From Pseudomonadota bacterium (GTDB lineage Bacteria > Pseudomonadota > Gammaproteobacteria > SZUA-229): a stretch of 12,285 nucleotides of DNA. Positions 880 through 12,285 of the stretch are shown here, in pieces (positions within the stretch are counted from its first letter, which is position 1; every line of letters starts with the position of its first letter). Location: positions 1 to 12,285 of the forward strand of contig JADFWF010000259.1 in the NCBI GenBank assembly GCA_015222965.1, written 5' to 3'. The translations under genes and the position numbers were made by a program. The notes under the pieces were generated by a model. The model saw only the letters and a program-made list of their open reading frames with translations. It was not told the DNA's origin and did not search any database.

Positions 880-2268
880 TCAGCAAAGCCCAAGAGATTT
901 AAGCTTACGATAGATAGTACGCTCACTGATGCCCAATGCATTCGCTGCTTTTTTACGGTTACCATGAAACTGGCCAAGAAGTTCCTTTATGTGCTGCGCC
1001 TCAAGATCTTTTAATGTTGCCTTCTCAGCAATACCAGCAGGAGGCGGTTGAGATGTTGCCATGGACGTATGGCTCATTTCATCAATCGATGTCACATCTG
1101 GATGCATACAATGCGGTAGATTATTGATCACTTTAGTAATTAAAGCTGCATCCATACTAGAATTGTGGCTGCGCGTCGCTGCGATGAAAAGAATATTGCG
1201 CAACTCACGAACATTACCCGGATAGTTATAAGTTTGTAACTTCTCATAAGCATCAGGCATCAGATGATAACTGCTGTGCATCGAGCGATTGATGCCTTCG
1301 AGTAAATTATTAGCCAGAACAGGTACATCGTCAATGCGGTCACGAAGGCTTGGCAGACGGATATTGAGACATGCAATCCTGTAATACAGGTCCTCACGGA
1401 ATGAACCTGCAATAACTGACTCCCATAAATGCCTGTTTGTAGCACAGATGATTCTGACATTGGTCTTTCTACTCTTCTTGCCACCAACACGTCTGTATTC
1501 TCCATTTTCCAGAACACGCAGTAACTTGGCTTGCTGGGATGCAGGCAGGTCACCCACCTCGTCGAGAAATATAGTGCCGCCATCAGCAAGTTCAAACAGA
1601 CCCTGTTTTTCACCGACACTACCGGTATAAGCACCACTGGCATGGCCAAACATCTCTGACTCGAACAGGCTATCGGTAAACACAGTGCTGTCGATGATCT
1701 GGAACGGTCCACCACTACGCGATGAATGCTGGTGAATAAACTTTGCGGCCAGCTCCTTGCCCGTACCGGTTTCCCCCAACAATAATACCGGCGCATCGGA
1801 ACTGGCAGCGACATTTAACTGATTAACACATGCGAGGAACTCAGACGACTCTCCGACCATGCGCTCACCTCTCGGCAGATGAGTATCCGTCAATGAAATC
1901 TTCTCGATACATTCACCGAGGAACAACTCATCGCTGGAACCCTTTAGAGGAAAAGCAGAAACTTTCACATGGTGCATGTGTTGCTCAGAATCGCAATGGA
2001 CATGCGCACAGACAGTTGCCTCTCCGTTACCGAATACCTTGTCGTGAGGGCACTCCTCACCTTCATCGCTACATGGATGATCATTTCCATGACTGACCTG
2101 ATAACACATCTTGCCAACCGCATCTTCGCTCGATGCGCCGTACTCATGTTCGTATGCTTTGTTGACAGCGAGGATACGATAATCTTTGTCGATAACGACA
2201 AATGGCTTTTCGTGACTGTTTACCAGCGATGTCAGATCGATCGATGTTTTTACAACTTTCTTATCCAT
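880..2268 (-). CDS. Sigma-54-dependent activator: Cys-rich PAS, AAA+ ATPase and Fis-type HTH
   Basis: 462-residue enhancer-binding protein that remodels sigma-54 RNA polymerase by ATP hydrolysis. An N-terminal PAS domain (about 12-125) carries C55, C66, C73, C87 and C92 plus many histidines (H60, H64, H89, H91, H97, H99, H100), suggesting a bound metal, heme or redox centre. The AAA+ domain (about 137-365) has Walker A GETGTGKE 165-172, Walker B GGTIFLDE 230-237, arginine-finger candidates R291/R297, and GAYTGS at 212-217 where GAFTGA is usual. The Fis-like helix-turn-helix is at about 435-460. There is no phospho-receiver domain, so the signal is sensed directly. I chose the ATG at 2268, with GGGGTG upstream and PAS homology starting at once, over the one at 2331, which lies within operator DNA. 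It faces away from the thioredoxin operon. Likely targets are the two sigma-54 promoters in this window. Confidence 0.93.
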   Translation of the reverse strand: MDKKVVKTSIDLTSLVNSHEKPFVVIDKDYRILAVNKAYEHEYGASSEDAVGKMCYQVSHGNDHPCSDEGEECPHDKVFGNGEATVCAHVHCDSEQHMHHVKVSAFPLKGSSDELFLGECIEKISLTDTHLPRGERMVGESSEFLACVNQLNVAASSDAPVLLLGETGTGKELAAKFIHQHSSRSGGPFQIIDSTVFTDSLFESEMFGHASGAYTGSVGEKQGLFELADGGTIFLDEVGDLPASQQAKLLRVLENGEYRRVGGKKSRKTNVRIICATNRHLWESVIAGSFREDLYYRIACLNIRLPSLRDRIDDVPVLANNLLEGINRSMHSSYHLMPDAYEKLQTYNYPGNVRELRNILFIAATRSHNSSMDAALITKVINNLPHCMHPDVTSIDEMSHTSMATSQPPPAGIAEKATLKDLEAQHIKELLGQFHGNRKKAANALGISERTIYRKLKSLGLC

Positions 2269-2314
2269 CTGCACCCCGTCAAAACTAGTTATCAAGAAAC
2301 ATTCATATGTCGTA

Positions 2315-2364
2315 ATGACATGCTGCGTCATAATATGTCAACATACCATGCCACATATGACATA
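2315..2364. promoter_or_regulatory. Probable upstream activator sites of the thioredoxin operon
   Basis: A perfect 7-base inverted repeat TATGTCA-N17-TGACATA spans 2334-2364, and ATGAC-N7-GTCAT spans 2315-2331. Several TGNCA half-sites occur in these 50 bases. The - strand string TATGTCATATGTGGCAT (2364-2348) recurs with one base fewer at 9885-9900 upstream of the cytochrome. The main repeat centres about 113 bases before the predicted sigma-54 start at 2463. It overlaps the -10 region of the activator's own promoter, so binding there could repress it. Confidence 0.5.
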
Positions 2365-2436: not shown

Positions 2437-2452
2437 TGGCATGACAATTGCT
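2437..2452 (+). promoter_or_regulatory. Sigma-54 (-24/-12) promoter of the thioredoxin/DUF2059 operon
   Basis: TGGCATGACAATTGCT fits the consensus TGGCACG-N4-TTGCW with one mismatch. The invariant GG (2438-2439) and GC (2450-2451) have the required 12-base offset. Predicted +1 is near 2463, giving a leader of about 100 bases to the ATG at 2565. The sigma-54 activator is encoded divergently next door. Confidence 0.75.
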
Positions 2453-2564: not shown

Positions 2565-3095
2565 ATGCTCAATATGATGAAATACAAAACAACAGCATCA
2601 TTGTTATTCATAGTGGTAGCATTAACCTCCACAACGTTTACCTATGCAGCACAATCATTCGTACCCTATACCGGTGATAATAATTTTGCTCTCGATGACC
2701 TGAAAGGCGAACGACACACCTCCCCCGATCATCATGGCAAGGTGGTACTGGTAAATTTCTGGGCGAGCTGGTGCCCGCCCTGCATCTATGAATTGCCTGA
2801 ACTGCAAAGACTGAAACAGGCGTTTCCAGAACAGTCTTTTGTGATACTCGCCATCAATGTAGGCGAAAAAAAATACAAGGTCAGGAAGTTCGCCAAACTC
2901 ATAAACTATGAGCTTCCAGTTCTATTAGACACATCAAAGAAGACGTTCAATGACTGGGACATAAAGACACTACCGACATCATTCCTTATCGATTCAGCTG
3001 GAAATATCCGTTACCGTGTCCGTGGCAACCCTGGTTGGGACAATGAAGATACCCTCGACCTCATCAGGAAGCTGATTACAGAACCGACTGAATAA
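2565..3095 (+). CDS. Secreted TlpA/ResA-type thioredoxin-fold protein
   Basis: 176 residues. A signal peptide or membrane anchor occupies about 1-28 (cleavage likely near TYA-AQ), followed by a periplasmic thioredoxin fold. The redox motif WCPPC has C70 and C73, followed by the E76-L-P typical of the TlpA/ResA/CcmG group. The cis-proline segment is TLPTSF with P137. Members keep cysteines reduced in the periplasm, commonly the CXXCH cysteines of apocytochrome c before heme attachment. It is first in an operon with the DUF2059 gene 40 bases downstream. AGGAC 12 bases before the ATG is a weak ribosome site; ATGs at 2574 and 2577 are alternative starts. A sigma-54 promoter precedes it. Serving the cytochrome encoded nearby is inferred from shared promoter and operator design; a general disulfide reductase role is the alternative. 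Confidence 0.9.
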   Translation: MLNMMKYKTTASLLFIVVALTSTTFTYAAQSFVPYTGDNNFALDDLKGERHTSPDHHGKVVLVNFWASWCPPCIYELPELQRLKQAFPEQSFVILAINVGEKKYKVRKFAKLINYELPVLLDTSKKTFNDWDIKTLPTSFLIDSAGNIRYRVRGNPGWDNEDTLDLIRKLITEPTE

Positions 3096-3135: not shown

Positions 3136-3597
3136 ATGAAACCATTTATTCTTCCAGTTATCACCGCTCTCCTGCTGACTGTACTAACCACCACATCATA
3201 TGCTACTGGAGAGAAAGCACATAGAGAGCAGGTCGATACTTTATTCAGACTGACCCAGATGGAGAAAAAGATTCAGGAGAGTGTCGATTCAGTAGTACAG
3301 TTACAGATCAGGCAGAACCCTCAACTGGTCACGCACGAAAAAACGATCCATCAGTTTTTTACTAAATACATAGGCTGGAATGCACTCAAGGATGAATTAA
3401 CAGATATGTATATGCAGAAGTTTACTGAGAAAGAGCTGGTAGAGATCAATGCTTTCTACATTACTCCTTCCGGCCAGAAAGTAATCACCGTGTTACCGGA
3501 ACTGGTGCAGGAACGTAACCAGCTGGCTATGATGCGGTTACAAAAAAATATTGGTGAACTGCAGCAGATCATCGGTGCGCAGAAACCAGCACCATAA
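3136..3597 (+). CDS. Secreted DUF2059-family protein
   Basis: 153 residues with a clear signal peptide (about 1-23, cleavage near SYA-TG). The mature part is all-alpha in character and carries the DUF2059 signature: an aromatic helix, then FTEKELVEINAFY (about 96-108) followed by TPSGQKV. The mature part has no cysteines. DUF2059 proteins are exported and their biochemical role is not established, so I assign none. TTAGGT lies 7-8 bases before the ATG as a ribosome site. The gene sits 40 bases behind the thioredoxin gene and very likely shares its sigma-54 promoter, which would place it in the same response. The gene ends 36 bases before the 3' end of the opposing small secreted-protein gene, and I see no strong terminator between them. 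Confidence 0.85.
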   Translation: MKPFILPVITALLLTVLTTTSYATGEKAHREQVDTLFRLTQMEKKIQESVDSVVQLQIRQNPQLVTHEKTIHQFFTKYIGWNALKDELTDMYMQKFTEKELVEINAFYITPSGQKVITVLPELVQERNQLAMMRLQKNIGELQQIIGAQKPAP

Positions 3598-3633: not shown

Positions 3634-4068
3634 TCATTGCGGCTGGATTGAGCAATCCAGGGATTCGTCTTTTATTTTGGAAAAATCGACGACGGCAGTT
3701 TGACCCAGAACTGACCAATGAATGACATCACCCCCCTTCACTTCGGCTATGGAGAATTCAACCTCGAATTCATCTATATGCAGTCCTGGAAGGAAAACTT
3801 TTGGCTGCCCTCTATCGACTGGATACAGTGAGAACAAGTTATCATCGCCAATGTCGATATATACTTCTGCTTCAATTCCGGCATCTTCGGGACATTGGAG
3901 GTCATAGCCAAAATGAGCGATAGCACTGCCCTCTTCTAGCCGCTGCACACAATGAAAAACAGGCACTACAACACAGGCGTGAGCCTGGTTGGCAGTGCTT
4001 TTCTGCGCCCATGCTAAAGTTGTAGATAGCAGGGCCGATAATATTGTCAGGATATAGACGTAGCGCAT
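3634..4068 (-). CDS. Small secreted four-cysteine protein, unknown function
   Basis: 144 residues from the ATG at 4068, which has AAGGA about 7 bases upstream; an ATG at 4098 lacks this and precedes the signal peptide. The signal peptide is about 1-21 (AWA-QK). The mature part has C32, C40, C59 and C139, enough for two disulfides. A central block reads AHFGY (51-55), then IDIGDDNLFS (71-80), DRGQPKVFLPG (85-95), F-x-V and a Trp strand (IHWSVLG). This order resembles, from memory, a recurrent beta-rich segment of secreted bacterial proteins (A-H-F/W-G-Y, I-G-x-x-N-x-F, R-G-Q-P-x-x-F); I know no function for it. It is about 150 bases downstream of the parvulin gene on the same strand, so it could be the last gene of the cytochrome cluster or a separate unit. 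Confidence 0.7.
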   Translation of the reverse strand: MRYVYILTILSALLSTTLAWAQKSTANQAHACVVVPVFHCVQRLEEGSAIAHFGYDLQCPEDAGIEAEVYIDIGDDNLFSLYPVDRGQPKVFLPGLHIDEFEVEFSIAEVKGGDVIHWSVLGQTAVVDFSKIKDESLDCSIQPQ

Positions 4069-4219
4069 TATTTTTTCCTTCCTATTCGACAGGTGCACGC
4101 TAACGATAATCTAGTAATCGTGGATCCGTACACATCTGAATGACTCACTTATTTCGTATTACACTGGAATATAAAAAGTATAATAAGTAGCAGCTCATCT
4201 CATAATGACGTAATAAAAA

Positions 4220-5731
4220 CTATTCTGCTGCCGGTGTTATCCACTTCTGCAAATCCTGCAAACGCTGTTTTGTTACAGAATCCTGCTCTTTGGCTTTTAT
4301 GGTTAATTCTGCGATGTAGTCCGCCTCACTCTGGAAGTTCCTGTTCAACTCATCCTCAAACACAGCTACTTCGAAATGGTTCTTGCGAAGATCGATCACA
4401 TAGTCACTGAACTTTTTCTGCATGTAGAGGCGAAGTGTTAGTTGACGTACCTGCGGATCATCAAAATTCTCATATAGTGCATCATTGACATCTAGCACCT
4501 TGACCAGGTGCCAGCCGGCAGGTGATTCGACAGGACCGCTGACCACTTCCGGCTCGAGGTTAAAGGTAAAATCATCCAGCTCTTTAAAACCGGTACCCTG
4601 ACTGACCCAGCCCATATCTCCTAACGTACGTTTTGCATTAGGATCGATCGAATATTGCTGTGCAGCCTGGAACATGGTGATCTTGCCACTATCAATTTCA
4701 GACTTGATCGATTCAGCTTCTTTTTTTGTTTTAACCACGACCATCTGTACTTTGCGTGTCTCAGGCACACTTATCTTATCCATATTATCGACGAAGGCTG
4801 TCTTTAGCTCATCCTCTGAAGGTTTCCACTTAGCGACCAGGTTGCTGCGATAGATATTGATCAGGTGTGTCTTGCGGTATTCAGCTGTCCGCTTGAAAAA
4901 TTCTGGATCCTTGTCCATACCAGCCGCCCTTGCCTTGTCGACCATCAACGTATTATCGATATACTCCTCTAACCGCTGCATGCGCTCCTCGTCATTATCG
5001 ACATAGAACTCTGCCAGTGTGGCGTGGTGATCCGCACCACTCATCAGCACCTTTACATCGCTCCAGTTAATACGTTTATCGCTTATAGTCACAACGGTAT
5101 CTGTATCCGAGCGTTCGCCATCTGCACTGCTGCTCACTACATCCTCAAAGATCTTGATATCAGTACCGGCACGCAGGCGATCACGCAGGCTGTTTTTCTG
5201 TTCAGCGAATCGCTGTTTACGTATCTTGGCCTCGATAGACAGTTTTACATCATCGGTAAATTCGGTTTCCGGGTTAATATTCGTTTTATAGTACGCCGCA
5301 ACCTCTTCTTCACTGACCGGAATATCGCCGATCATGACGTTTGATCGGTACATAGTCACCAGTACCGCATCCTCAAATTTTTTCATATCATCCACGTACT
5401 TTGTCAGCCTGTCCGCACCATTTTTCTTTGCGTCCAGGTACAGAAGGTTGGCACTGATCATCTTGTCGAGCAAGGTAATGATCACTTGGTTGCGGTCAGG
5501 CGTACCTAATGCAGGAATAGACAGACCAACCATGGCTGAACTGTTCAACATGAGGTTGAGCTCATTGAATGTAATCAGCTCATCGTCGACTTTCGCAACG
5601 ACACCCTCGGCATTCAATTGCTGACTGGTTTCATCAGCAGATTTATCTGCAGGTTCTTCATTGCCACAGGCCACCAGAAATAAAGTAATCAACAGGAAGG
5701 ATACAAACTTAGAAAAATACTGATACCGCAT
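4220..5731 (-). CDS. SurA-like parvulin peptidyl-prolyl isomerase lipoprotein
   Basis: 503 residues. A lipoprotein signal peptide has lipobox L19-V20-A21-C22; Gly-Asn after the Cys, with no Asp at +2, suggests outer-membrane sorting. Two similar chaperone-like starts are seen, VVAKVDDELITFNEL (about 44-58) and VVTISDKRINWSDVK (213-227), suggesting an internal duplication of the SurA N-terminal type. A parvulin (rotamase) domain follows at about 322-414, with the conserved order QAAQQYSID, GDMGWV and AGWHLVKV. It would catalyse prolyl isomerisation and chaperone secreted proteins at the outer membrane. It lies directly behind the cytochrome gene on the same strand, past a large hairpin, so a dedicated foldase for that cytochrome is a reasonable inference. 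I chose the ATG at 5731; a TTG at 5746 is the alternative. EpsD-type or general SurA-like roles are possible. Confidence 0.87.
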   Translation of the reverse strand: MRYQYFSKFVSFLLITLFLVACGNEEPADKSADETSQQLNAEGVVAKVDDELITFNELNLMLNSSAMVGLSIPALGTPDRNQVIITLLDKMISANLLYLDAKKNGADRLTKYVDDMKKFEDAVLVTMYRSNVMIGDIPVSEEEVAAYYKTNINPETEFTDDVKLSIEAKIRKQRFAEQKNSLRDRLRAGTDIKIFEDVVSSSADGERSDTDTVVTISDKRINWSDVKVLMSGADHHATLAEFYVDNDEERMQRLEEYIDNTLMVDKARAAGMDKDPEFFKRTAEYRKTHLINIYRSNLVAKWKPSEDELKTAFVDNMDKISVPETRKVQMVVVKTKKEAESIKSEIDSGKITMFQAAQQYSIDPNAKRTLGDMGWVSQGTGFKELDDFTFNLEPEVVSGPVESPAGWHLVKVLDVNDALYENFDDPQVRQLTLRLYMQKKFSDYVIDLRKNHFEVAVFEDELNRNFQSEADYIAELTIKAKEQDSVTKQRLQDLQKWITPAAE

Positions 5732-5820
5732 AATACAATTTCCCAATATAAATTTAGTGCTTGTTATTCATTGACCTAAGAGAATTACATAAAAGATAAA
5801 AAGTATCTATAAGCAATTCA

Positions 5821-5876
5821 CCTGTAATAAAACAATGGAGGGAAAGTCGCCTTTCCCTCCACTGTTTTATTACAGG
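5821..5876. terminator. 26-base-pair palindromic hairpin after the cytochrome gene
   Basis: Arms 5821-5846 and 5851-5876 pair over 26 positions around a 4-base loop. Read as - strand RNA, all positions pair with a single G-U wobble, and the loop is GCGA, a GNRA tetraloop closed by G-C. On the + strand the wobble becomes an A-C mismatch. The GGAGGGAAAG core is flanked by A-rich and T-rich arms, as in a bidirectional intrinsic terminator. It starts 36 bases after the cytochrome stop and lies before the parvulin gene, so it may terminate, attenuate or protect the cytochrome mRNA end. Confidence 0.8.
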
Positions 5877-5911: not shown

Positions 5912-8900
5912 TTACCAGCCGCAGGTATCACCGGTATGCTGCGTTGAGATATACTCCCAGGCAGCCTCGGAAGCACGGCCCTGTACCAGGTGGTTCTTCC
6001 ATTTATCCGTACAACCCCTGCGAGCCAGTGTCCTGGTACGGTCACCGTGACAACTGGTACAGACCGTATTCGTCGGATCTTCAAACGCAGGGTCACCGCC
6101 GACATGGCCAAATTTCGCCAGCTCTACCTTGTCCATCATCTCACGAGAGCTGCGTCCCTTGTAGGCGTGCTCTGTCCACGTCTTGTTGGTAGATGATATG
6201 TCAGCGCTATTATCCTGATGACAGTTCAGGCAGTAATCGACCAGCGGATCAGCCTCAGCGGTAAAGGTATGCATCCACGCAACCGCCGCTTCATAGTCAT
6301 CCTTGATAGGCTGTCCATTGTAGGTCAGTCCATCCTCGATATGACTAGGAACACCGACACCATTCACCTCGTGACATGTACCGCACTTCAGTGGACCATG
6401 TGAACCATCGTGGTTCAGTGCCGCAGCCTGTGCGTAAGTCGTGGTATCGATATTCGGCGTTACCGGATACAGACCATGGATCGACTCATGACAGCCCTGA
6501 CAGCTAATGTCCTGGTGACCTTTCGAGTAACGCATCAAGCTGGCTTTACGCGGGTAGTTAAATGGCGGATAAGCATTGATGTTGCCGCTCTGCTCAACAA
6601 ACGGTGCAGCGTGACAGTCCGCACAGTGTGGTTCACCGGCAGACAACCAGTGGTCACGACCATCGGTGGCTGCTGAGAATGGTACCGGTACTGCCACAGA
6701 ACCTGATGGTAGTGTCTTCTGTGCTGCGGCAACACAATCAGGTGTTGTACAGAAGTCCATCGCATTCACACTGAAGTCGCCATCGCCATCCGTAGTTCCA
6801 CAGATATGGAAAGCAGGACCACCCTCAGCACTACAGTCGATGAGACCAGTACCACCACCGGTTGAACATGAAGCTGCACTGCTAGTATTAACCTCAACCG
6901 TAGCCACAGCGCCATCATGGGCAGGGTCTATAGATCCTGCAAAATAACCGGCTACATAATTACACAGGCCAGGATCAGGCGCCCAGATCGCATAGGTATC
7001 ATCGACCGGGTTACTGCTCTTAGGATCCAGCCAGGAGATCGCCTGCGCTTCTGTGGTTCCAACAGCAGCAGCAACCGCTGCCAACGTTGGTTCAGCACGT
7101 GGATTGGCCGTACCTTCGTTGTGTACCAGGCTAGTCATATTTTCAGCCTTCCACATTTCCTGACCCAGCTGGTTATGACAGTTGGTACACCAGAGACCGT
7201 TTGCACCCGGTACGTCATTGGCAACGTTATCCGATATCCACTGTCCAACCGCATTCAGGTGTGCAGATGTCTCTACACCATCATTATCCTTATTAGGATT
7301 AGAGTGCACATCGCGACCGACGAAACAGCCGCCGTTGGCGCCACGATTATCACCGTTAGCATAATAGTTGGTACCTGCCAGGGTGATAGGGTAACCACTC
7401 ATGTCACCATCAGAACGGTGAGCCGGGTGACAACCCTGACAGCCACCATCACGACCCAGTGAGTCAGAGAAGGCAATCGGACCACCAGCAGCTTCGCTCT
7501 TGTGGTTATTATGCAAAGCCTCGGTCACCGGCGGAATCAGGTCACCGCCATGGGTCGCTGATTTAACCGCTGCGATCACGTTGTCCGCATGGCAACGCTG
7601 ACAGATCACGGATTCATGACCCAGGCGGGTGTTCTGCGGTGCTACACCACCCTCATCCGCACCAGGGTAGTTCGCCGTAAAGCTGGTGCCATGCTGAACA
7701 TCATGGCCGTTTAACATACTGATCGCCGCACTCTTCAGTCGAGCATACCAGTCGGCATCGCCGGCACCGGTATCGATATTGTAGTACGCAGTCCAGTAGT
7801 TATATTCCTGTGTCACCAGCGCATACTGTGCTGGATCATTGTTTGGACTGTTGTCTACCATCAGTTGACCGCCACCTTCAACAGCAGGTATATCGATCAT
7901 GACACCATCAGCTGGATTAGAGTGACAACGCTCACAGTTCGGAATATCGATCGGTGCAGTACCGAAACCGATCACCGGATTACCGCTGCTGTCCAGTGTC
8001 GCTGCCCCGATACCGCCATAAGCGTTTGGATCGTAGTCATGCATCTGTGCCTTCATGGCGACGAATGGGCGTACGGAGTCCTCGTCCACCAGTCCAGGAT
8101 CGGCGAAGAAGTCGATGGTGTCTTCAAACGGGGTCAGCGGCAGACCTAATGCTTCCCAGATATCGGGCGAAGTCAGCATGATCGGCAGATTTTCCAGCAC
8201 TTTCATCTGGGTATACACCACCGTACCGTGCTCACCGGAGAAGGTCAGCACGTTACCATTAGAGAAACCGGCACAATCGTTATCAGCACCACCTTCTGTC
8301 ACCGGCCCCATCGGATGCAGTGCTGGACCACAATTTTTTGGATAAACTACGTGACCGTTCACACCCAGGCGGATCTTGTCGGCATCCAGTGAGGTACCAG
8401 TCGAGTTACTGCCTTCCAGGTCTTCATAGAAATACAGATGGTTCCACACGGCATTCTGATAGTTGTCAGCACCGCCAGAGGTATCACCGTCACCCAGGAC
8501 AACACCATCAGAACCGTTATAGTTGCCAGTAACAAAAGTGCCATTTGCGTTCAGCGCAGCTGAATCGAACGTGGTGTTCCATGACATCAACGAGTTACCT
8601 TCCACCGCGCTGATCAGCGTGCTGGACTGCGCCTTACCGCGGCCATCGTTACGAGGTTGTGCATCATGCCAGTATCTCAGCACATATTTCTTGAAGTTAC
8701 CGTTTCCATCCAGCTCCATATCTCGGACCACGGTTTGACGGCCCAGCGCATCAAGGCCTTCGTTTGGATCACCTGCCATCAGCCTCGCAAAATCACTGCT
8801 ATCATTCGGATCGATGGTATTTGGTTTAACAACCTGTGCCAGGATAGAGTTGTAAGCTGGCAAGACACAGCAGTAAGCAAATTCGAAACCGGTACAGTGC

Positions 8901-9646
8901 ATGCCCAGCTCGTAGTTCATCATGATCTTGAAATCTGTCTGATCAGTAAAACCAGGGTCAATTGGCGGCGGGACATCGGTCACTGTAATCGTCACTGTTG
9001 CTGTATCTGTAAACTCACCATCAGACACTTCATAGGTAAATGAGTCATCACCTTCAAAACCACCATTAGAGGTATAAGTAAACGAACCATCTGTATTCAG
9101 GTTCAGATTACCATTAGATACATCGCTTATCAGATCTGAGACTACAAGCGGATCAAGCAATCCATCATCTTGATCGTTACCCAGAACGCCCGGTGCAGCC
9201 ACATTCAAGGTCTGAGTTGTCGTTGCATTGTAGGTATCATTGATAGCCGTTGGAGCAGTATTACCGCCGCCGGATACAACTGTAACTGTTGTACTGCAGT
9301 TCGCCGAATCACCTCTTTTGTCGGTGACATTGAGCAGCACATTATAATTCTCACCTGGAGTGGAATAAACAACATCCACACGGGTATCAGTAGAAGCACC
9401 GGGAACACCACCACCATCTGTAAAATCCCAGGTATAGGATTTTGCCCCCTTGCCTCCATCGGTATTACCATCAAAATTAATGGCCACACCAGCCGTCGCT
9501 GTAGCGTCAGTTGGTGTAATAGTACATGACAAAGGTGCTGGCTGAGCCGCCTGAACGCTGCCAATTGTCATTACCAAAAGTACGCTGGTGCAAGTTGCTA
9601 TAAAGGCTGTTTTTTTCAAGAACTGTTTCAGTAGACCTGTAAACAT
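5912..9646 (-). CDS. Large secreted nine-heme c-type cytochrome with PKD and cadherin/Ig-like domains
   Basis: 1244 residues. A signal peptide (about 1-33, VQA-AQ) precedes a PKD-like domain (about 38-125) and a cadherin/Big_9-type domain (about 129-225, with GVLGNDQDD and DSFTYEVSDG). A region holding GMHC (248-251) and CCVLPAYNS follows. Nine CXXCH heme sites begin at residues 571, 682, 736, 820, 1008, 1049, 1088, 1139 and 1196, so the first 570 residues carry none. A 184-residue gap between hemes 4 and 5 holds non-heme cysteines and a DGDGDF acidic loop. Hemes are attached in the periplasm. With no lipobox or anchor seen, the protein is probably surface-exposed or released and conducts electrons outward. 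AGGAGG lies 7 bases before the ATG. A sigma-54 promoter and activator sites precede it; a parvulin gene follows. The GMHC segment recalls large delta/gamma-proteobacterial cytochromes, but I cannot tie it to a characterised one. Confidence 0.92.
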   Translation of the reverse strand: MFTGLLKQFLKKTAFIATCTSVLLVMTIGSVQAAQPAPLSCTITPTDATATAGVAINFDGNTDGGKGAKSYTWDFTDGGGVPGASTDTRVDVVYSTPGENYNVLLNVTDKRGDSANCSTTVTVVSGGGNTAPTAINDTYNATTTQTLNVAAPGVLGNDQDDGLLDPLVVSDLISDVSNGNLNLNTDGSFTYTSNGGFEGDDSFTYEVSDGEFTDTATVTITVTDVPPPIDPGFTDQTDFKIMMNYELGMHCTGFEFAYCCVLPAYNSILAQVVKPNTIDPNDSSDFARLMAGDPNEGLDALGRQTVVRDMELDGNGNFKKYVLRYWHDAQPRNDGRGKAQSSTLISAVEGNSLMSWNTTFDSAALNANGTFVTGNYNGSDGVVLGDGDTSGGADNYQNAVWNHLYFYEDLEGSNSTGTSLDADKIRLGVNGHVVYPKNCGPALHPMGPVTEGGADNDCAGFSNGNVLTFSGEHGTVVYTQMKVLENLPIMLTSPDIWEALGLPLTPFEDTIDFFADPGLVDEDSVRPFVAMKAQMHDYDPNAYGGIGAATLDSSGNPVIGFGTAPIDIPNCERCHSNPADGVMIDIPAVEGGGQLMVDNSPNNDPAQYALVTQEYNYWTAYYNIDTGAGDADWYARLKSAAISMLNGHDVQHGTSFTANYPGADEGGVAPQNTRLGHESVICQRCHADNVIAAVKSATHGGDLIPPVTEALHNNHKSEAAGGPIAFSDSLGRDGGCQGCHPAHRSDGDMSGYPITLAGTNYYANGDNRGANGGCFVGRDVHSNPNKDNDGVETSAHLNAVGQWISDNVANDVPGANGLWCTNCHNQLGQEMWKAENMTSLVHNEGTANPRAEPTLAAVAAAVGTTEAQAISWLDPKSSNPVDDTYAIWAPDPGLCNYVAGYFAGSIDPAHDGAVATVEVNTSSAASCSTGGGTGLIDCSAEGGPAFHICGTTDGDGDFSVNAMDFCTTPDCVAAAQKTLPSGSVAVPVPFSAATDGRDHWLSAGEPHCADCHAAPFVEQSGNINAYPPFNYPRKASLMRYSKGHQDISCQGCHESIHGLYPVTPNIDTTTYAQAAALNHDGSHGPLKCGTCHEVNGVGVPSHIEDGLTYNGQPIKDDYEAAVAWMHTFTAEADPLVDYCLNCHQDNSADISSTNKTWTEHAYKGRSSREMMDKVELAKFGHVGGDPAFEDPTNTVCTSCHGDRTRTLARRGCTDKWKNHLVQGRASEAAWEYISTQHTGDTCGW

Positions 9647-9771: not shown

Positions 9772-9787
9772 AGCATATAACATGCCA
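9772..9787 (-). promoter_or_regulatory. Sigma-54 (-24/-12) promoter of the multiheme cytochrome gene
   Basis: The - strand reads TGGCATGTTATATGCT. The GG (9786-9785) and GC (9774-9773) have the correct 12-base offset, and the TGGCATG block equals that of the thioredoxin-operon promoter. The -12 element is ATGC rather than TTGC, so it is slightly weaker. Predicted +1 is near 9761, giving a leader of about 115 bases. Confidence 0.65.
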
Positions 9788-10104: not shown

Positions 10105-12285
10105 TTATTTGCTTACATGCTGTTCCTCATCGGCACTCTCCTCCCGTAATCTTGATAACCAACGGCAGTAACAAAGACTTTCTTTATCCATAGAGTACAC
10201 ATCAGGATATGCTTTACAGCGCCTTTCATTTTTGCTGATGGTTAAATTGATCAGGTGCCATTTTTTAAGCATCTCATGATTGCCACATTCTTTGATGACT
10301 TTTCTTGCCAGATCCATGTTGCGCATGGAAGGCCTGATCCGAAAATACAATACTGCATCGCCATACGTGCCCGGTATGTTCTTTTTTCCCGACTTAAAGT
10401 ATGCCGGCCCGGTAATGATGAATCCAAAATTGAGATTTATATCTTGATTGGTATCATCAACAACCGGGTCGTTGGTTTTGACCTTAAGCGGGTAAACATG
10501 AAAAACAAATGGGTCCTGATTTTTCCTGAGCTTATCAATTGCCGCGACGTCTTCATGTTTTATATAGGCATTAATGAATTCTCTGATGAGAAGCGTTTCA
10601 TAATGGTGAAAGTTGTATTCACTCTGTGCTTTTTTCCAGTCGATTTCTTCAGCATCGTCATCATCAGATAAATGTAGAAATCTCACATCGTATTGTACTG
10701 ATTGATTGCCAGATTGTTGACCTGGTCTGCTGCCACAGGGTATTACTATATCAAATGGTTTCTCTTTGAACTCCAGATCTCCGGAATCCAGTCCAAGGCG
10801 GTATTCACAGAAAGACTGGAAACGAGCACCGTAGGTTCCAGCCGTCATCGTCCAGGTAAAACGCAGCATCTGTGACCACGACCAGCGGCGGAACAGGTTC
10901 ATCCAGCCACGGTTTCTTGGAGCGGCATACTCCAGGTCAAGGTGGCGGTCATAGTAGATCTGCTGCATGAACTGGATTAGGCGTTTACAAAAGTAGAACC
11001 CTGCTCTGAATTCCTCATAATCAGCGGGCAATAAACCTCGGCTTTTATCTACAGTATCAGCGATAGAATCATCTTCAGTGTCCTCTACAGGATCAGTAGA
11101 TCGCTTACCTGGATCCTTTTTATCAAAATGCTCTTTAGCTACTATTTGCAGATTCGGGTAGAGTTGTCCATCAAGAAAAACAAGGTGTTTATCAGTTCGC
11201 AACGTATCCATAATTGATTCGAGCTGCTCATCATGATCTTCAGGTTTCTGGCTGTACGGGTCAGAACCGGCATACCATTGTTTATGAAGTTCCATAACGA
11301 CGCGATCAATCCTGTCCTTTAGATTGGTTTCTTCTGAACGTGCAATATCTACTGCATTTTCGAGGACGGCCGTTGCAATATGCTCTCCCAGTGCCCGGTA
11401 GCTCTCAAACTGGGTCTCATCAAACCACTGATCAACTGTGCTTTCATGTGGGAAATCCTTATGGCTGTTCGCATATGTCTCTACACTTAGGGGTTCATCA
11501 CCGGTCAGCGAAGATTTGATATAGACAAGGATACCATCCGGCTGGTCCTTGTCAGCTTCACTATAACGGATGCAACCCACAGCGCAATGCCACTGGCTTT
11601 TACCGGTTTCAGAATCCCGTTTTATCTGTGAAACGTCGATATCGATAGGAACACCCAGATCAATCTGGCATTTTTCGAGTGCATTCCCCAGCCCTGAGAA
11701 TGTCATATCCGGGTCGGCCTCGGCATCACAGGCCACGATAATATAACAACGCCGGCGCACCAGTTCGTAGATGCCAAGGTTTTCAAAGTGGCCGCCGTCG
11801 GAGAGATAAACATAGTCGCTTTTTGAGTCGGTTTTGCCCAGCAGCTCATTCCAGAGATAAAGCAAACCCCACCCTGGAGCGCTTGACGAAATACGCATGG
11901 AGTTTTCTTTTGTGGTATTTGGCAACCACCAGCCGAGTCGGACATTAAATGTGGTCATCAGGAAAGTGAGCGCAGGTGATGAATGGTAGCCCATATTAGG
12001 GCTGGCAGCAGCGCCGGAAATAGTCATGGCTTTGCCTAGTGAAATGCCATGCGTATCCCCTGCGTAATGTTCACTTCCAACAAAACCACCGACACGCCCT
12101 ATGTTCTCTTTACCGGGTTTATTATCGTTTTCACCGCAGAATTCGTAACCACAGTACTGCGGGGTAAACGTAAAAGAAGCAGCTTTACGTTTTTGCCATG
12201 CGAGTCGTTTGCTGTCGACCAGGTTAATCGCAGCATTAATAATCAGGTAGGGTTCGGTACATTGTCTCTCCCTTCGATCACCTTC
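10105..12285 (-). CDS. Patatin-like phospholipase family protein, 5'-truncated
   Basis: The frame is open to the right edge, so the N-terminus lies outside; 726 residues are visible. The ATG at 12027 is internal, because 86 further in-frame codons precede it with family-like sequence (INAAINLV, RKAASFTFTPQYCGYEFC). The patatin fold's catalytic aspartate is visible as SDGGHFENLG, with D at residue 163 of the visible part (codon 11799-11797). The nucleophile Ser (GXSXG) should lie upstream, off-window. Patatins are Ser-Asp dyad acyl hydrolases of phospholipids. The long C-terminal half, with acidic runs such as DDDDAEE, has no domain I recognise. I associate the layout with large, partly membrane-bound patatin proteins in Gammaproteobacteria. 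It is separated from the cytochrome by regulatory DNA and is probably a functional stranger to it. Confidence 0.88.
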   Translation of the reverse strand, partial: EGDRRERQCTEPYLIINAAINLVDSKRLAWQKRKAASFTFTPQYCGYEFCGENDNKPGKENIGRVGGFVGSEHYAGDTHGISLGKAMTISGAAASPNMGYHSSPALTFLMTTFNVRLGWWLPNTTKENSMRISSSAPGWGLLYLWNELLGKTDSKSDYVYLSDGGHFENLGIYELVRRRCYIIVACDAEADPDMTFSGLGNALEKCQIDLGVPIDIDVSQIKRDSETGKSQWHCAVGCIRYSEADKDQPDGILVYIKSSLTGDEPLSVETYANSHKDFPHESTVDQWFDETQFESYRALGEHIATAVLENAVDIARSEETNLKDRIDRVVMELHKQWYAGSDPYSQKPEDHDEQLESIMDTLRTDKHLVFLDGQLYPNLQIVAKEHFDKKDPGKRSTDPVEDTEDDSIADTVDKSRGLLPADYEEFRAGFYFCKRLIQFMQQIYYDRHLDLEYAAPRNRGWMNLFRRWSWSQMLRFTWTMTAGTYGARFQSFCEYRLGLDSGDLEFKEKPFDIVIPCGSRPGQQSGNQSVQYDVRFLHLSDDDDAEEIDWKKAQSEYNFHHYETLLIREFINAYIKHEDVAAIDKLRKNQDPFVFHVYPLKVKTNDPVVDDTNQDINLNFGFIITGPAYFKSGKKNIPGTYGDAVLYFRIRPSMRNMDLARKVIKECGNHEMLKKWHLINLTISKNERRCKAYPDVYSMDKESLCYCRWLSRLREESADEEQHVSK

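Follow-up and report, generated by a model that had tools for sequence, protein, structure and literature searches.

A nine-heme GMHC cytochrome with a neighbouring prolyl isomerase gene: a candidate branch of large exported multiheme cytochromes

The OmcA/MtrC decahemes are large, exported, multiheme proteins in which beta domains stand beside heme groups, and OcwA of Thermincola has been described as a nine-heme protein, proposed to act on the cell surface as a terminal reductase (PMC6703420). In Methylococcus, PKD-bearing cytochromes of the c553o family have been predicted (PMC4257694), and members of this family have been reported at the cell surface (PMC4831470). In the bacterial partners of anaerobic methanotrophic (ANME) archaea, a peptidyl-prolyl isomerase has been reported in one operon with a beta-propeller and two multiheme cytochromes (PMC5539420). 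Here, we focus on a cytochrome gene located at 5912..9646 on the minus strand of contig JADFWF010000259.1, from a gammaproteobacterium of the SZUA-229 lineage. This stretch of 12,285 nucleotides, hereafter the window, spans contig C52 in its entirety; the draft genome to which it belongs totals 2.05 Mb over 371 contigs and is 75% complete.

The nine-heme GMHC cytochrome and its relatives

Sequence comparisons indicate that the protein represents a new, unnamed branch of large exported multiheme cytochromes, distinguished by a heme-free domain named here after its GMHC residues. The open reading frame (ORF) codes for 1,244 residues plus a stop, and all coordinates in this paragraph refer to the minus strand. 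A probable signal peptide (residues 1-34, 9545..9646), recognised by eye from its basic start, hydrophobic stretch, and VQA-AQ, precedes a PKD domain (residues 46-122, 9281..9511; Pfam PKD_4, 39.6 bits for a cut-off of 27) and a Big_9/cadherin-like domain (residues 129-221, 8984..9262; Pfam Big_9, 55.8 bits for a cut-off of 23.6), with Cadherin_5 also over its Pfam cut-off at residues 129-223. The GMHC domain follows (residues 230-566, 7949..8959), delimited by conserved residues and AlphaFold, and beta-rich in the model. GMHC itself occupies residues 248-251, with zero CXXCH motifs within 226-570, and belongs to a GMHC-N7-CC segment (residues 248-260, 8867..8905), kept in the nine- and seven-heme alignments described below, which is a possible metal site. 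From the motif positions, hemes 1-4 would be attached at residues 571, 682, 736, and 820 (7175..7936), and hemes 5-9, also supported by alignment, at residues 1008, 1049, 1088, 1139, and 1196 (6047..6625). Alignments and AlphaFold delimit the region between the two heme groups (residues 871-1000, 6647..7036), which contains C966/C971, and family conservation the C-terminal tail (5915..6046), with C1212, C1242, and a C(G)W/Y end. The start-to-start gaps between the CXXCH are 111, 54, 84, 188, 41, 39, 51, and 57 residues, and 2,000 shuffles of the protein's own residues gave on average 0.03 CXXCH, and at most two, versus the nine present. Cytochrome_C7 and Cytochrom_CIII are over their Pfam cut-offs in the heme part. 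A first-pass annotation, made from the letters of the window, had described the ORF, the PKD and Big_9/cadherin-like domains, the GMHC part devoid of heme sites, and the nine unevenly spaced motifs; each checkable detail was borne out, and its gaps agree exactly with the motif positions from 571 to 1196.

Of the 7,996 candidates scored in a protein search with residues 230-1244, 811 reached E 0.001 or better and count as relatives; the family figures given here refer to the query and the best 120 of these 811 matches (n=121). At least nine CXXCH are present in 119 of the 121 proteins, exactly nine in 118 and ten in one, while P0029 and P0069, with seven and five, both look cut. Further analysis was carried out on the 112 of these 119 that have GMHC; among the seven left out, WMH replaces GMH in P0071, and the remaining six begin only in a later part of the protein. 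The 112 proteins show no variation in the 27 Cys and His residues of their nine CXXCH, nor in M249, H250, C251, C259, C260, H327, and H403. C966/C971 are likewise invariant in the family, C1212 is present in 98%, C1242 is conserved, and the C-terminal end reads CGW, CGY, or CW in 111 of the 112. After residue 640, 13 histidines outside the CXXCH are conserved at 98-100% (12 invariant, H1083 at 98%; n=112), more than enough, to judge from sequence, for nine bis-His hemes.

The adhesive N-terminus is the variable part of the family. The stretch preceding GMHC ranges from 5 to 672 residues (n=112) and is shorter than 70 in 23 proteins; 17 of the latter begin with M and have at least 30 residues before GMHC, and are therefore not simply cut. 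The Pfam domains listed for the relatives also vary (PKD, Big_9, cadherin, and others). Since this front part is optional among relatives, binding to matrix or minerals by the PKD/Big_9 domains cannot be the core function.

At the family level, the shared features comprise nine hemes along with the GMHC domain, a C(G)W/Y terminus, and an isomerase gene downstream, and the window protein has nine CXXCH, the GMHC-CC segment, the C-terminal signature, and the isomerase gene next downstream. The latter (4220..5746, minus strand) codes for a PpiC/SurA-like prolyl isomerase (Pfam Rotamase, 66.1 bits for a cut-off of 21.7), in which a lipobox-like LVAC was seen by eye near the N-terminus. Neighbours were counted for 18 distinct nine-heme genes in the fetched loci, 16 of which have more than 1.2 kb downstream, and the next same-strand gene encodes an isomerase homologue in 16 out of 16. 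For the seven-heme family presented below, at least 41 of 59 loci have it downstream; this is an underestimate, as the crude gene caller merges starts, the isomerase of L068 appearing in a separate homology comparison. The existence of a cassette common to a large family and of a partner isomerase gene are two points that go beyond the first-pass annotation. As in the ANME-partner operon, a prolyl isomerase is kept beside exported multiheme cytochromes, but the proteins described there carry 16 and 26 hemes, have a beta-propeller partner, and come from other lineages, the two systems being likened by description rather than by sequence (PMC5539420). Among the fetched loci, L013:5862-18184 holds two nine-heme GMHC genes plus two isomerase genes in a single stretch, and in L179 one isomerase gene is flanked by a nine-heme gene and a seven-heme gene.

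With regard to characterised cytochromes, the first-pass annotation had been unable to place the protein in a family, and this still holds: for the window protein and its relatives, no named or family-specific NCBIfam cytochrome model was found, and Pfam provides general cytochrome c3/c7 and Ig-like models alone. A search of PDB sequences (E up to 1) returned no solved MtrC, OmcA, OmcS, or OmcZ, four proteins that the same annotation had proposed for comparison, nor any filament cytochrome. Sequence criteria do not place the protein in the OmcA/MtrC decaheme family, as it has no match to TIGR03507 and nine CXXCH, not ten; as a control, a true OmcA/MtrC member in G012 matches this model at 501 bits. 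Pfam PF22113 reaches 27.6 bits in the window protein (cut-off 30) and 31.0 in L068, and this model is not specific since an MtrA-like protein also matches it at 30.1 bits. AlphaFold modelling of the core from 80 sequences gave a predicted local distance difference test (pLDDT) of 81.7 and a predicted template modelling score (pTM) of 0.85. Along the model, a beta-rich part precedes hemes 1-4, and a part with additional strands lies between these and hemes 5-9. This order resembles that of MtrC, in whose family beta domains alternate with five-heme domains, but fold searches with the core model found no fold match. When modelled alone, the GMHC domain reached a pLDDT of 72.4, with the GMHC loop below 50, which might be expected if a metal or the heme domain were required for folding; fold searches with this domain gave just weak Ig-like rows and no known enzyme fold. 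OcwA shares with the window protein the number of hemes (PMC6703420), but differs in being absent from the PDB sequence matches.

A second group of GMHC cytochromes carries seven CXXCH, which correspond to hemes 1-7 in an alignment of the 112 nine-heme with 120 seven-heme proteins; both sets were selected for GMHC, the CC pair not being a selection criterion. These cytochromes, from Methylobacter, Sedimenticola, Nitrospinota, Saprospiraceae, and others, share 46-48% identity with the window core in alignment A1, and for most of them tblastn gives 37-41% identity with the window protein. They share the GMHC-CC residues and 10 of the 13 extra histidines with the nine-heme family; M249, H250, C251, C259, C260, and H403 are invariant in the 120 proteins as well, and H327 is present in 89%. 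However, they are about 800 residues long, lack the part with hemes 8-9 and C966/C971, and have Tyr in place of H999. In the 120 listed, GMHC is preceded by 12-99 residues, leaving little room for adhesive domains. Taken together, the nine- and seven-heme families are found in Candidatus Thiodiazotropha (clam symbionts), methanotrophs, Sedimenticola, and Nitrospinota. Five of the seven-heme relatives (L038, L044, L049, L050, and L053) occur in metagenome-assembled genomes labelled Saprospiraceae (Bacteroidota), far from most holders, by transfer or through a binning error, and three of the 120 listed (P0217, P0221, and P0241, one of them named from Hyphomicrobiaceae) have a peptidoglycan-binding domain, PF01471.

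Profile comparison further linked both GMHC families, remotely, to a wider nine-heme set bearing NDLGMHC. The match to this DLGMHC set has 99.6% probability over 222 columns around hemes 1-2, and hemes 6-9 fall in register (96.1%, 144 columns) when separate C-terminal profiles are compared, one from 70 of 111 nine-heme proteins and the other from 70 of 119 DLGMHC proteins, although CXXCH itself adds to this score. The seven-heme and DLGMHC profiles match at 88.4% over just 28 columns. According to the simplest reading of these sequences, a nine-heme ancestor would have lost two hemes in the seven-heme family, gain being the alternative. Among 120 listed relatives of one DLGMHC protein, L142, nine CXXCH are present in 119 and DLGMHC in all 120. 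Like the window protein, these cytochromes combine GMHC and nine CXXCH with exchangeable N-terminal domains (PKD, Calx-beta, fn3, and others), but their consensus has no CC pair after GMHC, their hemes 3 and 4 are merely 22-30 residues apart, and the DLGMHC loci inspected contain no isomerase homologue at E 1e-4. We infer that this set, from Methylococcus and other Gammaproteobacteria, corresponds to the cytochrome c553o family of M. capsulatus, represented by MCA0338, MCA0421, MCA0423, MCA0424, MCA2160, and MCA2259, through an indirect link via L142 and P0243, a PKD domain protein of Methylococcus sp. that is 88% identical to L142. In a genome from the order of Methylobacter luteus, L148:3462-16000 harbours a same-strand run of four nine-CXXCH genes, all devoid of GMHC.

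Probable electron transfer at the outer surface and rival explanations

We consider it probable that the protein is an electron-transfer cytochrome that is secreted or sits on the outer surface and has a folding partner of its own. Following export to the periplasm, nine c-type hemes would be attached, a TlpA-like thioredoxin encoded in the window may hold the CXXCH cysteines reduced, and the downstream-encoded prolyl isomerase would assist folding of the long polypeptide. The mature cytochrome would then act at or beyond the outer membrane, exchange electrons with a porin-cytochrome conduit of the MtrAB type or with a periplasmic carrier, and relay them via its hemes towards or away from an external partner; the N-terminal PKD/Big_9 part would serve as a replaceable tether.

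The genomic context of the family was surveyed in 58 relatives, including the window's genome, 37 of which are near-complete. The nine-heme gene is present in G000, G004 (cut by a contig end), G005, G012, and G019, and an MtrB/PioB porin was found over the cut-off in 13 of the 58 genomes and 9 of the 37 near-complete ones. In this small sample, the four near-complete relatives with the nine-heme gene all carry the porin (hypergeometric P 0.0019, kinship uncorrected), and in G005, about 9.8 kb separate the cytochrome gene from an MtrA-like decaheme gene (TIGR03508) and a porin gene (TIGR03509). The proposal of the first-pass annotation, a surface or released conduit with a binding front end, is retained in part: a large exported multiheme cytochrome that co-occurs with MtrB/PioB porins is supported, but the adhesive end is optional. 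In the same G005 stretch, an octaheme tetrathionate-reductase-family protein (TIGR04315) is encoded between the nine-heme gene and the mtrAB-like pair, at L175:13991-15547.

Several observations weigh against an outer-surface role. Five of the nine near-complete porin genomes lack the nine-heme gene; the window's own incomplete genome has neither MtrB/PioB nor an OmcA/MtrC match; and no porin was found in G025, a holder of a seven-heme relative. The porin and cytochrome genes do not share an operon. OmcA/MtrC is over the cut-off in G012 and G019 (not in G004, G005, or the window's genome), so that the conduits of these two genomes do not depend on the nine-heme protein for the MtrC role. Finally, no lipobox able to anchor the cytochrome was seen in its sequence, which would suit instead a periplasmic electron store or shuttle, never exposed at the surface, with Ig-like domains binding peptidoglycan or partner proteins. 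The periplasm is also where TlpA-like proteins and isomerases of the PpiC type function, and PF01471 occurs in 3 of the 120 listed seven-heme relatives. We nevertheless regard a periplasmic shuttle as rather improbable, given the co-occurrence with MtrB/PioB porins, the frequency of PKD and Big_9/cadherin modules in surface proteins, and, for remote relatives whose link is presumed, the surface location reported for Methylococcus c553o cytochromes (PMC4831470).

The conservation of the GMHC domain raises the question of a catalytic function, in which the protein would be a secreted or periplasmic redox enzyme. The GMHC domain would coordinate Cu or Fe as a non-heme metal through M249/H250/C251, C259/C260, H327, and H403, and transform a small substrate with electrons supplied by the nine hemes. 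The proposed ligands show little or no variation among the 112 nine-heme and 120 seven-heme proteins, and so tightly conserved a heme-free domain must have a role. In addition, dsrA is over the cut-off in four of six relatives tested (G005, G012, G019, and G025; not in G000 and G004), which indicates sulfur chemistry in these lineages and, with a presumed direction for Dsr, suggests that these relatives oxidise sulfur. Such an enzyme is still unlikely in our view: the remoter DLGMHC family has GMHC but no CC pair in its consensus, the close relative P0071 carries WMH instead of GMH, no known enzyme fold was matched, and the low confidence of the GMHC loop in the models makes the spatial proximity of the ligands conjectural. 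Polymerisation into a filament like OmcS, OmcE, or OmcZ appears very improbable. The protein is exported, multiheme, and accompanied by a dedicated isomerase, and, to our knowledge, filament cytochromes require no sequence similarity to one another; yet none was retrieved among the PDB sequence matches, and the large beta domains argue against such an assembly.

Neighbouring genes, hairpin, and sigma-54-like sites

Beyond the isomerase gene, the window encodes a TlpA/ResA-like thioredoxin (2565..3095, plus strand; Pfam and NCBIfam) with a WCPPC motif seen by eye and 29 homologous ORFs in the fetched loci; over the stretches retrieved, 12 of 18 nine-heme loci have a homologue, as do 17 of 67 seven-heme loci. 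A DUF2059 protein (3136..3597, plus strand; Pfam) and a PAS/sigma-54 activator/Fis-type regulator (880..2331, minus strand; Pfam Sigma54_activat, 206.6 bits) are also encoded, and the order cytochrome, isomerase, DUF2059, TlpA, regulator is identical in the window and L002, bar one extra small gene in the window. No Pfam or NCBIfam family is over the cut-off for the ORFs at 3634-4098 and 10105-12285, the second scanned from the ATG at 12027.

A 26-bp hairpin with a GCGA (GNRA-type) loop lies between the cytochrome and isomerase genes (5821..5876, minus strand; -46.4 kcal/mol, z -9.9). The stem finder reported a stem with a GGAGGG arm downstream of 14 of 18 nine-heme genes and of none of the 66 seven-heme genes, 49 of which do have some stem of 10 or more, and it occurred in 0 of 360 mononucleotide shuffles. 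The total rises to 17 of 18 upon adding L003, L005, and L179, at which the stem finder had reported another stem or none, and L007 has a related arm without GGAGGG. Spacer fold z-scores range from -1.7 to -8.8 in 16 nine-heme loci. The pattern GGAGGGGA-N3-14-TCCCCTCC occurs at one place each in G019 and G339, both in the cytochrome-isomerase spacer, and nowhere in G000, G005, and G012, where the stems deviate from the exact pattern. A T run follows several copies (e.g., L003, L009, L014, and L175). The hairpin may act as a terminator or stabiliser, making the cytochrome mRNA more abundant than that of the isomerase.

Upstream of the cytochrome gene, a sigma-54-like -24/-12 site was detected by pattern score (9772..9787, minus strand); its sequence, TGGCATGTTATATGCT, is found 125 bases ahead of the ORF start, and TGGCATGTTAAATGCA precedes the nine-heme gene in the same-genus genome G005. 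A pattern search revealed another such site upstream of the TlpA-like gene (2437..2452, plus strand), absent from the corresponding spacer of L002. The strict pattern occurs five times in the window's draft genome, twice inside the window, and eight times in G005; with one mismatch allowed, the window has two matches versus 0.7 expected. Homologues of the regulator are present in L002, L007, L013, and L015 at 55-80% identity, and in the seven-heme locus L060 at 42%. Scores of 12.5-14 were obtained before five of the six nine-heme genes in regulator loci and of at most 11 before the other 12 (Fisher P 0.0007, the score and cut having been chosen after seeing the sites), some loci without the regulator being too short to exclude one. 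Expression of the cytochrome may therefore be turned on via sigma-54. Arguing against this part of our interpretation, the association is post hoc and concerns five loci, two of them of one genus, and the site upstream of the second L013 copy scores just 9. Judged by eye, Cys and His are abundant in the PAS part of the activator (HPCSDEGEECPH, VCAHVHCD), which may be a metal or redox sensor.

Implications for sulfur- and methane-cycling bacteria

A bolder view, which we hold to be doubtful, is that the GMHC domain constitutes an undescribed non-heme metal/thiol redox centre wired to the nine-heme chain. The family would then be a new class of secreted enzyme-conduits in sulfur- and methane-cycling bacteria, co-made with its isomerase under the control of sigma-54 and of a conserved mRNA hairpin.

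Multiheme surface cytochromes determine which microbes trade electrons with minerals, electrodes, and partner cells. In a study of Methylobacter sp., a porin-cytochrome cluster was reported, and no outer-surface MtrC/OmcA or OmcB/OmcC homologues were detected (PMC13322032). Methylobacter luteus holds an MtrAB-like pair plus a seven-heme relative of the window protein, and we can propose that this relative is a candidate for a missing outer part.

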